From a virus, in the IMG/VR virus record IMGVR_UViG_3300035698_002212, positions 1 to 20,104 of that record: DNA of 20,104 nt. One strand, 5' to 3'. The position numbers and the translations under genes are program-made. The notes under the pieces were generated by a model, which was not told the origin of the DNA, made no database searches, and saw nothing but the letters and a program-made list of their open reading frames with translations. Positions 3,289 through 20,104 of the stretch are shown here, one piece after another; the stretch's first letter is position 1, and each line of letters opens with the position of its first letter.

Positions 3289-4215
3289 TTAAAGCATTAC
3301 TGTTAAGTTTGGATTTATAATTTTATTACCTAGGCCGTCATCTAAAACCATGCTTGTGTTAGGTGATGACCAATTTTTAACAAGATCAGCTATTCTTCCA
3401 GTCGGTAGCCCTCCGCCTTCACCAAAATTTCCATGATTAGCTAAAAATGTTACTCCACGAGCATCAGCTTCTTTTTCCCAATATCTACCAGTGGATTCTA
3501 TCCAAGGTAAATTATGATAAGCTTCTGGTAATAACGGCATTTGACCAATGTTATATGCTGCTGTCGCAGTAGCTATTGAAGTTCCTCCGTATGCTCTGAC
3601 AAGTGTTAAATGAGTAGTATCTGCAACCTCTGATATTTCGTACCATAAACCATCACCAGTCTTAGCGGTGTCACTATAAGTAATTCTAATCCAACGACCA
3701 ACCATTTGTGAAGTCCATGAAGTACCGGTACCAACTACCGCAGTTGAACCTTTAGTAGCAGTTGTTATTGTTCCAGTAGTATAATCGGCTACGCTTAAAT
3801 CAATTACTCTTGTTTTTTGTGTTACGTTTATAGTATTTCCAGCACTCGCAGGAATTGGCCATAAATATAACTGGCCACTAAATACGAAATACCACTCTGG
3901 TATGTCTGATGTATATGAACTTGAATTTAAAAAATCCCAATGCGCACGATCTGGTGACATTTTAGGAACGCATGTTTGATCATCTATTTCTACTGATATT
4001 TCTCTAACCTGATCACAGTCATAAGGTAATGGATAATTTTGAGTTGATGCAATAGTTGTGAGCGTTCTAAGTCGCTCTAAAAAAGGCCAATCCTTAACTG
4101 CACAAATAGACCTATAGTCGTCATTTGCTATTTGATCACCTAATAAAAGGTTAGCCGCTGATGTATTTTTTGATAGTACTCCGTAAAGATTACGGCCGAT
4201 TGTATAGCTTTTCAT
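3289..4215 (-). CDS. Putative head-tail adaptor (short-tail connector) protein
   Basis: The protein has 308 residues. The N-terminal part (DDYRSICAVKDWPFLERL, then TTIASTQNYPLPYDCDQV) matches the style of connector proteins of podoviruses such as the SU10/P22-like adaptors: a short helical start, an Arg/Trp-rich turn, then a beta region with QNYPLP. A central beta insert has KGSTAVVGTGTSWTSQMVGR followed by WIRI, a motif common in phage connector and tail proteins where it forms an Ig-like or beta-barrel domain. The C-terminus is helical (MPLLPEAYHNLPWIESTGRY). Such adaptors form a ring under the portal to which the tail nozzle attaches. Its position beside the nozzle and ejection genes fits. 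The start at 4215 is the first ATG after an A-rich leader with no SD. The adaptor call is by motif and synteny only. Confidence 0.6.
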   Translation of the reverse strand: MKSYTIGRNLYGVLSKNTSAANLLLGDQIANDDYRSICAVKDWPFLERLRTLTTIASTQNYPLPYDCDQVREISVEIDDQTCVPKMSPDRAHWDFLNSSSYTSDIPEWYFVFSGQLYLWPIPASAGNTINVTQKTRVIDLSVADYTTGTITTATKGSTAVVGTGTSWTSQMVGRWIRITYSDTAKTGDGLWYEISEVADTTHLTLVRAYGGTSIATATAAYNIGQMPLLPEAYHNLPWIESTGRYWEKEADARGVTFLANHGNFGEGGGLPTGRIADLVKNWSSPNTSMVLDDGLGNKIINPNLTVML

Positions 4216-4232
4216 AGTTTTATTTTATCACA

Positions 4233-4790
4233 TTAACCTATTCTAAACAAAGATAAGTTGGCATGTTCTACTAATATATCAGTAGCTAGAGTGTAATTTT
4301 TAACAGCTAAACTTATTTCATCTTTAGCTGTCAAATTAAGTATAGCACATCCAGCTATGTTTATAGACTTATCTACTGCTACTGTGGTTCCATTTTCATG
4401 CGGATTTTCAAGTACTATTCCTCCTTTAGCTATAGTTAATCCAAGAACTTGATCAGCAGTACCAGTCTGTAACGATGAGCTAAAAATTATTTGATAGACA
4501 CCTGTTTGAGCTACCATTATATTATGACTTCCAACAAATAAAGCGCCAAAGATTAATTCATTAGAAAAATTACTGTCAATTTCATACCAAGTATCTGCTG
4601 TTCCAACTGTTATTGTAGTGTCAGTATTGTTATAAATATAACTATAAGCATTCAAGTCAAGATCATTAATATCAACTTTAGTCGAATCAATACCATTATG
4701 TTGATGATCTTGTAGTTGAGGTTGCTGTTCAGACTTTTCTAGTCTATCGTTAAGACTATTTATTTGTAATTGTAAATCTTGCTCGATCAT
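4233..4790 (-). CDS. C1q-like beta-sandwich virion protein with HxHNG motif
   Basis: The protein has 185 residues. Residues 1-25 (QDLQLQINSLNDRLEKSEQQ) have heptad character and may trimerise. Then comes HQHNGIDSTKV (29-39), a short phage structural-protein motif. The remainder reads as a jelly-roll of the C1q/TNF type: a start like ITVGTADTWYEID, a GVYQIIFSSSLQTG strand pair, LGLTIAKGGIV, and ISLAVKNYTLATDILVEHAN near the end, finishing with LSLFRIG. Such folds occur in phage receptor-binding or appendage tips. Its ATG overlaps the stop of the nozzle gene (ATGA at 4787-4790), so translation is probably coupled and the protein probably sits on or near the nozzle. Whether it binds a receptor is unknown. 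Confidence 0.6.
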   Translation of the reverse strand: MIEQDLQLQINSLNDRLEKSEQQPQLQDHQHNGIDSTKVDINDLDLNAYSYIYNNTDTTITVGTADTWYEIDSNFSNELIFGALFVGSHNIMVAQTGVYQIIFSSSLQTGTADQVLGLTIAKGGIVLENPHENGTTVAVDKSINIAGCAILNLTAKDEISLAVKNYTLATDILVEHANLSLFRIG

Positions 4791-6538
4791 GGGAATAATC
4801 TTATTTCTACTAGCTCCATATCTATAGAGCCTATATTGCTGTCATTCATTTCAACTTGGATTTGAATATCATCTAAATTTATTAATCCTATTTCTTCGCT
4901 ATTAAATATATAAGTTGCTCCGTCAGCAGTAAAAGAGTCTATAGTCGTAAATCCATCAGAAAGTCCTGATCTGTATCCTACACGTAAATTACCACCGGCT
5001 GCTGGTCTAGCCATAACTACTTCCATTCTAGAATATGAAGCTTTGCCTAGCTTAGTAGCTACTTTATATAATGGTGAATTTATCACCGTTTCAAAGCTAG
5101 TGTAAAGTAATGCGCCATATAAACTGGAATTAAAGCTGTCCATTCCACCGTCATATCCCATGTAATAAAATTCATTTTTAGCCCAGAGTCCTATTACATT
5201 GTCACTACCAGACGAAGGTATACCGTCTATTGTCATCGCACCAGATTCGCTGATCTTCCATACGCCAGAGTTACCAGTAGTCAACACTTCAACTCCAATT
5301 AATAATGATCCATTAACTGCATCTATTCCACCCCATTTTATAGGATTAGACTGAATAGCACTTGCGCTATTAGTTAAATAATTAGGAAGCTTCTTAAAAA
5401 ATTTAACATAAGTTCCCTGAGTAGTATAGATGTTTCCCCACGTTCCAGCTAAAATATAAACTACTCCACCGACATTTTTCATCCTTTTTATACTATATTC
5501 AGGAACCATTAACGGAAGATTAAATGAATCGCTTACTCTGTCCCAAGGGTAAATTTTATTAAAAGTATTACCACCAATTAATAAATTAATTCCCTTCTCT
5601 TCTAAACATTGAGCCTGTTCATTTGGTGGTAGATCAAGAGCCTGATTAGTATAAGTATAGGTAGCAGCATTAGCTGGATCAAATGTTTGACCTACCTTTT
5701 CTATAATACTACCAACATATCGTTTATCACAAAAATAGATCGCTTCGTCTTGAGCGTTTATAGCAGCATGAGTAGAGGCATCACCAACACCAGCGTTCAT
5801 TGATTGCCATGCGTTTGACCATGCAAGAGCTTCAATGGCGGTACCTCCGTATATATCTATTACGTCAATTACATTATTTCTAAATGCTAATAAGTATGTG
5901 CTAGCTGTGCTTGAAAATGGACTGATAGCTATTCCGTTACCGCCAGCGTTAGTTACAGAAGCAGCGCCAGTGTCTATAGCTGAATTATGAAGTAAATAAG
6001 CCTTAGTTCCATCTAAAAACCAAACACGACCGTTCGATCCTTGCATAAAGACTTTACTTGTTCGTGGCTCTTCTATTATCCAATTAATAGTTCCAATAGC
6101 TACTTGATGCATTGTGTGAACACCAGTGCCAGCATCAGTTATATCTATAATAGTACCGGCTGCTGTTCCTATAGAATTTTTATAACTTGTTGTAACATTA
6201 AAAGTTTTATCGCTGATTTTATAAAGATAGTAAATAGTGTTTATTGCAAGGCCAGCCGGTAGAGTGTTTGTAGTAGTAAAATAAACAGCTGCTCCTGAAA
6301 AGTTTTGATCATTAGATTCAACATCAGCAACACAAGTACATAGGTCTGTTGCAGCAGCAGCGGTAAACACTTGCTCTACTATACTATGAAAAGATGGGCC
6401 GGGCTTCTTGTTAACACAAACTGCTCCGGGAAAACTATCTAAATCGGCATTGCGAAACAAACCAAATCCCTTGTGAGGCGAATCAGCCACACCTTGATCC
6501 CAGTCTTTGATTATTAATGGTTCTTGTTGACTACTCAT
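4787..6538 (-). CDS. Putative tail nozzle (tail tubular B-like) protein
   Basis: The protein has 583 residues. The start has IIKDWDQGVADSPHKGFGLF and FPGAVCVNKKPGP (37-49), as in nozzle/hub proteins of short-tailed phages, which begin with a strand followed by a PG-rich turn. Residues about 57-147 form an inserted small beta domain (AAVYFTTTNTLPAGLAINTI then YYLYKISDKTFNV). The body is rich in repeated strands with Gly/Trp/Tyr turns, such as RVWFLDGTKAYLLHN and GGVVYILAGTWGNIYTT, which read as propeller blades; T7 gp12-type nozzles are beta-propellers. The protein would form the distal DNA channel of a short tail. Its ATG overlaps the previous stop at 6535-6538 (ATGA), and its stop overlaps the next start. 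The length fits nozzles, but the propeller is inferred by eye. Confidence 0.6.
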   Translation of the reverse strand: MSSQQEPLIIKDWDQGVADSPHKGFGLFRNADLDSFPGAVCVNKKPGPSFHSIVEQVFTAAAATDLCTCVADVESNDQNFSGAAVYFTTTNTLPAGLAINTIYYLYKISDKTFNVTTSYKNSIGTAAGTIIDITDAGTGVHTMHQVAIGTINWIIEEPRTSKVFMQGSNGRVWFLDGTKAYLLHNSAIDTGAASVTNAGGNGIAISPFSSTASTYLLAFRNNVIDVIDIYGGTAIEALAWSNAWQSMNAGVGDASTHAAINAQDEAIYFCDKRYVGSIIEKVGQTFDPANAATYTYTNQALDLPPNEQAQCLEEKGINLLIGGNTFNKIYPWDRVSDSFNLPLMVPEYSIKRMKNVGGVVYILAGTWGNIYTTQGTYVKFFKKLPNYLTNSASAIQSNPIKWGGIDAVNGSLLIGVEVLTTGNSGVWKISESGAMTIDGIPSSGSDNVIGLWAKNEFYYMGYDGGMDSFNSSLYGALLYTSFETVINSPLYKVATKLGKASYSRMEVVMARPAAGGNLRVGYRSGLSDGFTTIDSFTADGATYIFNSEEIGLINLDDIQIQVEMNDSNIGSIDMELVEIRLFP

Positions 6539-10527: not shown

Positions 10528-10546
10528 AAAGTATATAAATATAACA

Positions 10547-10590
10547 AAAAGACTACTGCCGCAATTAAATGCTACTACAAGTAGTCTTTT
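10547..10590 (-). terminator. Terminator-like stem-loop between head and fibre blocks
   Basis: The sequence AAAAGACTACT (10547-10557) pairs perfectly with AGTAGTCTTTT (10580-10590), an 11-bp stem with a 22-base loop, flanked on both sides by A/T tracts so that transcripts of either strand end in U-rich sequence. On the minus strand it lies after the stop of the 178-residue gene. A second shorter pairing (ACTAC with GTAGT, 10572-10583 region) competes for the same arm. The stem is AT-rich, so termination may be partial. Confidence 0.55.
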
Positions 10591-10630
10591 CGCAATTTCT
10601 TATTAGATTCATTACTTCAGGTTAAGCTTA

Positions 10631-11167: not shown

Positions 11168-11241
11168 AGTTTTTAATATACATATATTGGCGAGGTGATT
11201 CCAATAATTTTTATAAGCACCGTCTTTTTATTGATCCCACC

Positions 11242-11261
11242 TCCGCCCAGAATAGGGCGGA
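11242..11261 (-). other. GC-rich stem-loop in a 112-base spacer
   Basis: The bases TCCGCCC (11242-11248) pair with GGGCGGA (11255-11261), a 7-bp stem with loop AGAATA, strikingly GC-rich in an AT-rich spacer (11168-11279). It lies 18 bases after the stop of the decoration-like gene on the minus strand. No U-tract follows on that strand, so a simple intrinsic terminator is unlikely; an RNA-processing or 3'-end-protecting hairpin is possible. Nothing else is seen in this spacer. Confidence 0.5.
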
Positions 11262-11279
11262 AATGAGAGCAAAACTTGT

Positions 11280-17261: not shown

Positions 17262-18998
17262 CTAACGGTTGCGCCAATCTCCGTCATCTTCGTAAGCCCA
17301 CCATTCATCTTCTACCGGGCCTTTATTTCCAAACATTTGATCAGGGTTCATATCAACTGTCAGATCAGGATTAAGAACATAACTATTTGGTTCAGCTTCA
17401 TCGTTTAATCCAACTATACCACCAACTCCACCAAACCTAGTTATACCAACACGCCAGTAAACTGTAGCATGTACCCAGTCATCACGATCGTTTCTAAGCC
17501 ACCTATACTCAGGTACTCCAAGGGTATTTTCCTCTGTCACCCTATAAATATGGCTCCAATGCATCCAGTATTCATGCCATTGCTCCCTAGTTCCCCTAAA
17601 TAGCTTCATTCGCTTATCCCTGTATTCATCGACAACTAGCTGGATCATTCGGTTGCGATCAACTATGACATTTCCGTTTTCATCCTTTTCACCCCATCGA
17701 ATAAGGCTCATTGTCTTACGATCCCTAGCGTAATGGCAGAGAAAGACCCGACCGGGGTATGCCTTCCTTAATTTTCTGGCCCCAATAATATCACCACCCT
17801 GATCTATAATCATTATACTATTTGGGAACTCTTTTAGGAAATACTCAAGCGTCTGGTTCAGAGCCAGCTTGTTTACTTCGTCTGGCATGTAGTCAGTCAC
17901 TTCGCCATAGCCTAGCAATCCTTGCTTATTGCCATAAACGTACCGCAATTTTATACCCGTATCAACGCCAATAATCATCCTACCTTTATGCAAATTCTGT
18001 TCTGTAGTAACCGATCCTTTAATCATTTCTTCAGTAACGGTGCTATCACCACCGGCGTAAGCTAATCCGAGGACCTTATTATAGAAATAGTCCATTGTCT
18101 GCTTGCCGTCTAATATCTCGAGATATTTATCAATAATATCAGCAGCGCTCACCCAAGGGGCCATCAATAAGCTAATATGGTAGCCACTCCACTTTGCTCC
18201 CTCAGTTCCTTTTTTGGCACGCCATTCACCAATGCGTCTGTCTGAATTGCTTAACTCGCCACGACATATTTTACAAATGAACTTCCTTTTCTCCATGTCA
18301 ATACTCATTTTCTTTTCATCTTCTATATTCCAAGTCAGTATTTGTTTTTTGCTACAATGCGGACAAGTAATAAACCACTCTTTTTGATCGCTCAACTTCC
18401 ATTCAATATCAACACCTCTATTCGGTATGCTCGGATGACTAAAAACGTGAGTCTGTTTAAACTTAGAATGTTGCAAACGAGCCTGATAATCAGCTACAAC
18501 GTCTTGCTTTGATGAGTCCTTTTCATCATGAACCAACCTATCGGCGGTAACCATGATCGCAGCTTTCTTGCTCCAAGTACCTCGAAAGTAGATCATACTT
18601 AGGCCAACTTGCTTTTGTTCTATTCTATCCTTGTCAGTACAAAGGTTTTCTATATGGGGATTATTAGCTATCAACCTGTTAACCTTACCGCCAACAAAAA
18701 TAGAGACGTCTGCGTCAGTAGGCAAGGTATAAATAATATCCATGCACTGAGTTTCAGCGTCTCTTATATTTTTCAAAATCTCTAGGGTACTAAGGCCAAT
18801 TTGAGCGGCTTTAGTAACAACTAAGTTATCACTCTGGTCATTGTAAATGTCCATTAAAAATTGGTGACTAAGCCATTCAATAGGCTCACCTTTTTCGTTC
18901 TTTATTTGATGGTAGTCTACCCAAGCCACTGCGTCTTGATAAGCTAACGTTTTCAGCTCTAAACTTCCATCAGTCTTTGGTATTGCCGGTTTGTTCAT
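17262..18998 (-). CDS. Terminase large subunit, GpA-like
   Basis: The protein has 578 residues. The ATPase half has a deviant Walker A, KAAQIGLST (63-71), and a Walker B-like IMVTADRLVHDE (148-159), as in lambda GpA-type terminases. A zinc-binding pair CPHC (212-215) and CKIC (242-245) lies between, also typical of this group. The nuclease half has IIGVDTG with D346, IIDQGGD with D399/D403, and NDRDDWVHA with D504-D507, the acidic residues expected of an RNase H-like headful or cos nuclease. It cuts concatemers and drives DNA into the prohead through the portal. It overlaps the previous small gene by 29 bases. No small terminase subunit is certain in the window. Confidence 0.9.
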   Translation of the reverse strand: MNKPAIPKTDGSLELKTLAYQDAVAWVDYHQIKNEKGEPIEWLSHQFLMDIYNDQSDNLVVTKAAQIGLSTLEILKNIRDAETQCMDIIYTLPTDADVSIFVGGKVNRLIANNPHIENLCTDKDRIEQKQVGLSMIYFRGTWSKKAAIMVTADRLVHDEKDSSKQDVVADYQARLQHSKFKQTHVFSHPSIPNRGVDIEWKLSDQKEWFITCPHCSKKQILTWNIEDEKKMSIDMEKRKFICKICRGELSNSDRRIGEWRAKKGTEGAKWSGYHISLLMAPWVSAADIIDKYLEILDGKQTMDYFYNKVLGLAYAGGDSTVTEEMIKGSVTTEQNLHKGRMIIGVDTGIKLRYVYGNKQGLLGYGEVTDYMPDEVNKLALNQTLEYFLKEFPNSIMIIDQGGDIIGARKLRKAYPGRVFLCHYARDRKTMSLIRWGEKDENGNVIVDRNRMIQLVVDEYRDKRMKLFRGTREQWHEYWMHWSHIYRVTEENTLGVPEYRWLRNDRDDWVHATVYWRVGITRFGGVGGIVGLNDEAEPNSYVLNPDLTVDMNPDQMFGNKGPVEDEWWAYEDDGDWRNR

Positions 18999-19168: not shown

Positions 19169-19627
19169 TTATCTTAATGTTTTAGAAAACTTACGAAGTA
19201 GGTGCATCGCTACTGTATAGCTAGTCATATTGCCGTAGAGCGGACTGGACAGGCTCATAGCGTATATGTGCATATACCTGTGCCTTTGGTTGCGGTCTTT
19301 CACTCTTTCGCATACAACGTCGTATTGTACAGCATAAGCCCTAGCCTCTTGATCGAGCCTAAATTCTGGGTCTCTCAAAAACTTACCCCACCACAGCGCA
19401 GCTCCCTTTTTGTTATGATGCTGCTGCTCCATGTGTAGCTTTTCATGTTCAATCATTTCTTCAGGGATGTCTATACCGGTTGGATTGTAAATAGTATCGC
19501 CGAAAGTAAAGCAAGCATTAGGGTCTTTGATCCCGAACGTATTGCAAACTGATTTGTAAATCGGTGGCTTTTTTATTAAAATCTTAACTCCCTCTAGATA
19601 GCTTAGGTCTGGTTCGTTTTTAGACAT
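19169..19627 (-). CDS. Putative HExxH zinc metallopeptidase-like protein
   Basis: I choose the ATG at 19627 (MSKNEPDLSY), giving 152 residues; an earlier ATG at 19669 would overlap the preceding gene by 17 bases. Residues 61-65 are HEKLH, a perfect HExxH zinc site on a predicted helix (PEEMIEHEKLHMEQQH). About 29 residues later comes RLDQEARAYAVQYD, where E94 could be the third ligand, as in small phage and bacterial metallopeptidase families. The strands before it (CFTFGDTIYNPTGID) fit the usual beta-hairpin that precedes the helix. No signal peptide is seen. It is encoded just before the packaging genes. A protease acting in head maturation or on a host protein is possible; catalysis is unproven. 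Confidence 0.6.
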   Translation of the reverse strand: MSKNEPDLSYLEGVKILIKKPPIYKSVCNTFGIKDPNACFTFGDTIYNPTGIDIPEEMIEHEKLHMEQQHHNKKGAALWWGKFLRDPEFRLDQEARAYAVQYDVVCERVKDRNQRHRYMHIYAMSLSSPLYGNMTSYTVAMHLLRKFSKTLR

Positions 19628-19652
19628 AAAATTACAGAATTTAATTAATAAA

Positions 19653-19880
19653 CTATTTGTCGTTCTCATTTAAAACCATCAATCTTCTACTGTGATACAA
19701 ACCCGCTATAAATCCACTTTTATAGTCCTTACTTAAATTACTATCATCATCAAGAAGTTTTTTATGATTCTCAATTTCTTGCTGAAAAATATAAGCTATC
19801 TCTTCCTGTTTTTGATTAAGACTCATCTTTGGCTTAATTATTACTCTATCTCCACTTGGTCTTTCTAATCCACTACCCAT
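19653..19880 (-). CDS. Small helical protein of unknown function
   Basis: The protein has 75 residues: a short basic start (MGSGLERPSGDRVIIKPK), then charged helices (QKQEEIAYIFQQEIENHKKL, SKDYKSGFIAGLYHSRRLMV). No cysteines, membrane span or known motif is seen. It starts 26 bases after the structured intergenic element and is the first complete gene of the block before terminase. The start context CAAATCTATGGG resembles that of the portal gene (ATAAATCTATGGG). The function is unknown; a small terminase subunit would often sit near here, but I see no helix-turn-helix to support that. Confidence 0.6.
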   Translation of the reverse strand: MGSGLERPSGDRVIIKPKMSLNQKQEEIAYIFQQEIENHKKLLDDDSNLSKDYKSGFIAGLYHSRRLMVLNENDK

Positions 19881-19906
19881 AGATTTGTTATTAGTAATTA
19901 ATTACC

Positions 19907-20006
19907 TCTACTCTTAACGGGATCAGGTACGGGCCTAATTGTATCCAATCCGTTAAAAGCGGAACCATGCTTATGATTACGTTCTCAGCTTTACGCTAAG
20001 AGTAGA
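19907..20006 (-). ncRNA. Possible structured RNA element upstream of the packaging block
   Basis: The arms 19907-19919 and 19994-20006 form a 13-bp stem with one G-U on the minus strand (A-C on the other). Between them are candidate hairpins at 19963-19978 (AATCAT-AAGC-ATGGTT), 19938-19949 (ATTG-GATA-CAAT) and 19925-19936, giving a cloverleaf-like four-way junction. A competing hairpin at 19984-20000 would open the long stem. The G-U pairs point to a minus-strand RNA. It could be a leader riboregulator, a stand-alone RNA, or a packaging signal. It is not a tRNA: no T-loop consensus is present. Confidence 0.35.
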
Positions 20007-20011
20007 AATAA

Positions 20012-20104
20012 CTAATCTAATTTTTTACTCTCTTCCTCTATTCTCTTTTTTCTAGCTGCATTGAATATAGCAAGCCCGGCTTTTTCATCCTCACTAATAT
20101 CTTC
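20012..20104 (-). CDS. C-terminal fragment of an unknown protein (5' end beyond right edge)
   Basis: The minus-strand frame is open from the right edge to TAG at 20012, with 30 residues visible (EDISEDEKAGLAIFNAARKK then RIEEESKKLD). This is a charged helical C-terminus. It ends 5 bases before the structured element. Too little is visible to name a family; its position before packaging genes would allow a small terminase or regulator. Confidence 0.5.
   Translation of the reverse strand, partial: EDISEDEKAGLAIFNAARKKRIEEESKKLD

Follow-up and report, generated by a model that had tools for sequence, protein, structure and literature searches.

A long mRNA-strand stem at the small terminase stop codon of a phage contig, a candidate RNase III-type processing or mRNA-protecting element

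Stems near packaging genes in described systems and in the window

In phage T7, the 94-nt gap between gene 18, which encodes the small terminase (TerS), and gene 18.5 contains a long irregular stem overlapping the gene 18 stop codon. The stem scores z 4.2 on the sense strand and 0.6 on the antisense strand, and we take it to be the RNase III site R18.5 of Dunn and Studier. The T7 record used carries no annotation of R18.5 at this stem, and a literature search for R18.5 by name or for published elements of a similar type returned nothing directly relevant. RNase III cuts such stems in T7 mRNA, and its action depends on structure without a strong sequence consensus (PMC8708148). The window analysed here, a viral contig of 20,104 bases, carries an element at the same junction. 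Both sites overlap the TerS stop codon with a long stem and have a stronger signal on the sense strand. The loop of the T7 site is small and its stem contains more mismatches, whereas the stem in the window consists of 28 almost continuous pairs around a branched interior of 74 nt. The two share no sequence similarity, and RNase III cleavage of the window element is putative. Given the T7 parallel and the structure-dependent action of RNase III, we read the element, with about even confidence, as a stem for RNase III-type processing or for protection of the mRNA.

Other described systems resemble the element in part. In the RNase III processing stems of rRNA precursors, flanking sequences also form a long stem around an interior RNA. 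The interior in the window, however, is no known RNA and its stability is at chance. The pRNA of phage phi29, likewise found close to packaging genes, is branched and closed by a long helix. The packaging motor here is different, though, as the contig encodes TerS and a gpA-like large terminase (TerL) rather than a phi29-type ATPase without a small terminase. Rfam gives no hit for the element at the gathering threshold, and none to pRNA even at E <= 10; the element is also missing from some relatives and exchanged in others. The tRNA genes of related phages occupy the same terS-terL interval, and the tRNA-like cores of two relatives lie inside very long stems, but neither ARAGORN nor Rfam finds tRNA or tmRNA features in the window element. 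Lax ARAGORN thresholds produced noise only. The element was also considered as a tRNA or tmRNA itself, and this was rejected since neither ARAGORN nor Rfam gave a cloverleaf with a T arm and an anticodon or tag.

Closing stem, interior and genomic setting

All genes of the window lie on the minus strand, in the order terS 3' end, element, ORF75, g166 (166 aa), a 64-aa gene, TerL, and portal and capsid genes. The contig end cuts terS, of which positions 20012-20104 are present with a TAG stop at 20012-20014. Its C-terminal 29 residues are 46-58% identical to TerS of relatives, whose full-length proteins have about 165 aa and are of HTH type as called by inspection. The next reading frame downstream of the element, ORF75 (19653-19880), had no detectable relatives and is perhaps not a gene. 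The interval between terS and terL also holds the conserved g166 (19169-19669), followed further downstream by the gpA-like TerL (17262-18998; PHROG 675). An earlier note on this sequence had placed the element directly ahead of the packaging genes, and a location among them holds, between terS on one side and ORF75, g166 and TerL on the other. As a separate observation, g166 carries an invariant HExxH-type motif, EHEKLHMEQQ, which suggests a metallopeptidase; Pfam and PHROG matches to g166 were looked for and none were found.

The 13-bp closing stem of the earlier note (19907-19919 with 19994-20006, minus strand, 12 Watson-Crick pairs and one G-U pair) is present and continues on its outer side to a total of 28 pairs. 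As minus-strand RNA, the full stem comprises 24 Watson-Crick pairs, four G-U pairs and no A-C pairing, with two single-base bulges. The 5' arm (19994-20021) starts in the last terS codons and takes in the TAG stop, with a mean unpaired probability of 0.06, and the 3' arm (19890-19919) ends 9 nt short of the ORF75 start codon. On the mRNA strand the stem thus forms a duplex about two helical turns long, as in T7-type RNase III sites, and it lies between same-strand genes that are predicted from the gene layout to be polycistronic, as T7 intercistronic sites do. An AGAGG stretch in the 3' arm is buried in the stem, more than 20 nt from the ORF75 start. An intrinsic terminator, meaning a G+C-rich hairpin followed by a T run, was looked for at the element and not found.

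A 140-nt fold at this site was the strongest among about 670 windows tested on both strands (z -6.6 with 30 shuffles; z -5.4 with 200 shuffles). Within its own gap, the stem reaches z 8.1 as minus-strand RNA versus 3.0 on the plus strand (2000 random sequences). This strand preference agrees with the minus-strand RNA structure proposed in the earlier note, and so does its argument from G-U pairs, given that the full stem has only G-U and no A-C positions and that one pair of relatives folds on the sense strand only. When the best long-loop stem per 20-kb window was compared with random windows, the RNA-specific score was matched in 4 of 200, the strand-neutral score in 31 of 200 and a strict Watson-Crick score in 113 of 200. 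By themselves, the sequence statistics of the stem carry moderate weight because the strand-neutral and Watson-Crick scores are often matched at random; the placement of the stem adds weight. Stem score alone was not taken as evidence, since coding-region hits score similarly in a strand-neutral scan. Some candidate stems were picked with a score favouring G-U, which inflates their strand bias, and across all non-coding hits of the strand-neutral scan G-U exceeds A-C only mildly (98 versus 75).

Junctions away from the packaging genes carry similar stems as well, two of them in the window on the minus strand. A second intercistronic stem in the same late gene cluster spans 10528-10630 (z 4.7 sense, 1.0 antisense), and a third intercistronic gap, at 11168-11279, contains a short-loop hairpin (z 4.7 sense, 0.4 antisense).

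The term cloverleaf, used in the earlier note, over-describes the 74-nt branched interior (19920-19993, minus strand) because shuffled sequences fold as well as the interior on its own (z -0.35). In the minimum free energy fold, only two arms join the closing stem. A hairpin reading GGAUUGG...CCUGAUCC (19920-19951, minus strand) abuts the 3' arm of the closing stem and appears in both the minimum free energy and centroid folds. The 6-bp hairpin AAUCAU-AAGC-AUGGUU with its AAGC tetraloop (19963-19978, minus strand), which had been noted before, is recovered at a pair probability of 0.43-0.55. Tetraloop hairpins of 5 or more bp are somewhat commoner than in shuffles (3 versus 0.4, P 0.012). A competing hairpin that could open the closing stem had also been proposed, and it stands. 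This hairpin (19911-19959, minus strand) pairs 19950-19959 with 19911-19920 in the inner 3' arm through 10 pairs, prolonging the hairpin at 19920-19951 and excluding the inner closing stem. It is above chance when compared with shuffled loops (P 0.004), which hints at more than a plain stem. The fold containing it reaches -23.5 kcal/mol versus -43.2 kcal/mol with the full stem, and is hence weaker at equilibrium by about 20 kcal/mol.

Presence, exchange and compensatory change among relatives

Relatives were gathered as about forty contigs via TerL, and more via TerS and g166, with mechanical gene calls. Searches by blastn against phage records, the contig's own record and all loci found no homologue of the exact window element, and there is consequently no covariation for it from the collections searched. 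A gapped stem pattern run over all viral contigs gave a single hit (L136), which sits inside a portal gene and was rejected as a chance stem. The elements of different relatives have no common core motif, and their interiors are without mutual sequence similarity.

Stems of similar build nevertheless recur at junctions near terS and terL despite this lack of shared sequence. Those at L026 1516-1607 and L023 3652-3852 begin at the terS stop, as in the window, and similar long sense-strand stems near terS or terL are found in L002, L007, L015, L020, L004 and L005. Some relatives have their stems before terS or before g166. Among terS-terL gaps, 6 of 17 contain a stem with z >3 on the sense strand versus 2 of 17 on the antisense strand, and sense-strand stems at this level occur in 8 of 68 downstream gaps. 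In four relatives (L018, L020, L021 and L036), the next gene lies close behind terS, and the element is lacking between them. Three extra relatives, retrieved by their g166 genes, contribute no further element at this position.

A further comparison is offered by L004 and L005. Their flanks are about 92-97% identical, and the intergenic sequences after the same upstream gene are unrelated. Each of these (L004 2830-2955 and L005 2960-3126) forms a long closing stem despite the unrelated sequences, with the L004 stem favouring the opposite strand. Whole elements thus seem to be exchanged between phages, and pairing seems to matter more than sequence. Such a swap of stems suggests that selection acts on pairing and not on sequence, and elements of this kind would be invisible to sequence-based families. 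Separately, the terS-terL interval of L005 contains a DNA cytosine methyltransferase-like frame that is absent in L004.

The earlier note had proposed compensatory changes as a check. Position and outer sequence identify two homologous pairs of elements, and both contain such changes, while the window element has no alignable homologue. In L002 4179-4290 and L007 4093-4199, 92% of 25 pairs are kept with three double changes, compared to 36-54% in slid controls. A letter-shuffle control, which is weak with two sequences, reached the paired percentage in 49 of 500 cases and the double changes in 157 of 500. In L020 1575-1646 and L026 3200-3301, all 14 of 14 pairs form in both with five double changes, compared to 39-54% in slid controls and 17 of 500 in the shuffle control. 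The sense-strand folds of L002 and L007 reach z -2.3 and -4.1, and the antisense folds are at chance (-0.2 and -0.9). Judged from these two homologous pairs, pairing in the elements of relatives therefore seems to be kept while sequence changes.

Further RNA features lie in this region of the relatives. Upstream of terL, L020 957-1073 and L030 322-440 hold tRNA-like cores with good D and T arms and a 7-bp acceptor, and their acceptor stems run on into near-perfect stems of 30 or more pairs. A tmRNA (Rfam RF00023) lies directly before terL in L043 (4700-5001), and tRNA genes lie between terS and terL in L006 (4253-4326) and L023 (3961-4033).

Readings of the element, and further features of the relatives

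We suggest that the element is a cis-acting intercistronic stem of the late polycistronic mRNA, serving RNase III-type processing or mRNA protection, a reading to which we give about an even chance. The genes from terS to terL would be transcribed as a single mRNA that folds back at the terS stop codon into a stem of about 28 bp. Host RNase III would cut this stem, or the stem would block exonucleases. The terS message would thereby be split from the downstream packaging and structural message, leaving structured and stable ends. The 74-nt interior would be mainly loop, and the competing hairpin may delay stem closure until the whole element has been transcribed. Since pairing is apparently kept while sequence is free to vary, a cis-acting mRNA element is favoured over a packaging RNA built on a conserved core. 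Such a conserved-core machine would not be expected to be missing or exchanged between close relatives, whereas a processing or protecting stem can be. If true, stems at TerS junctions in phages unrelated to T7 would be a recurring solution for late-mRNA processing at this place.

The main rival is a released small RNA, because L020 and L030 hold tRNA-like cores inside very long stems. A processing stem would then free the interior of about 75-100 nt as a trans-acting RNA, such as a regulator, decoy or anti-defence RNA, and the unit would be swapped like a gene cassette. Whole-element replacement between L004 and L005 would fit, as would the 6-nt anticodon loops of the tRNA-like cores, the tRNA and tmRNA genes in the same region and the competing hairpin in the window. 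We regard this as possible but doubtful, since the window interior folds no better than shuffles and has no Rfam match, and the interiors of different elements share no sequence. The broader notion that environmental phages keep exchangeable RNA cassettes near their terminase genes, each with an RNase III-ready stem and a varied, sometimes tRNA-like interior released as a functional small RNA, is rather doubtful.

The mutually exclusive hairpins and the AGAGG buried in the 3' arm could also belong to a translational or transcriptional regulatory leader, in which a change of pairing partners would control access to the downstream gene or produce a terminator. Such a leader is unlikely, as the element lacks an intrinsic terminator, and the AGAGG lies more than 20 nt from the start of ORF75, which is itself without relatives. 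Of the alternatives named in the earlier note, a leader-type cis-acting element nonetheless comes closest to the processing or protecting stem that we favour. A DNA site of the cos/pac kind, or an inverted-repeat mobile element (MITE), would account for the location at terS and for a pattern of presence, absence and replacement resembling cassette mobility. This is quite unlikely because on the transcribed strand the imperfections of the stem are G-U without exception, with no A-C, and homologous elements fold only at chance level on their antisense strands; the window holds no further copies of the element, and termini are not common to most phages. A packaging RNA working like phi29 pRNA, an association raised in the earlier note, would fit the position beside terS and terL and the branched RNA with a long closing stem. 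It is highly improbable given a conventional TerS with gpA-like TerL, an interior at chance without Rfam match, similar stems outside the packaging genes, several relatives without an element between terS and the next gene, and unrelated sequences in L004 and L005.

Beyond the element, some relatives have interrupted TerL genes. In-frame insertions are found in TerL of L036 (about 1467-2430), L037 (two, about 122-1890), L038 (about 150-1110) and L153 (about 4000-4950). With Cys at the start and HN or GN at the end before Ser or Thr, these look like inteins. One relative with 72% TerL identity (L009/L135, LCPQ01000028.1) is a contig of a Parcubacteria MAG, which hints at Patescibacteria as possible hosts of these phages.
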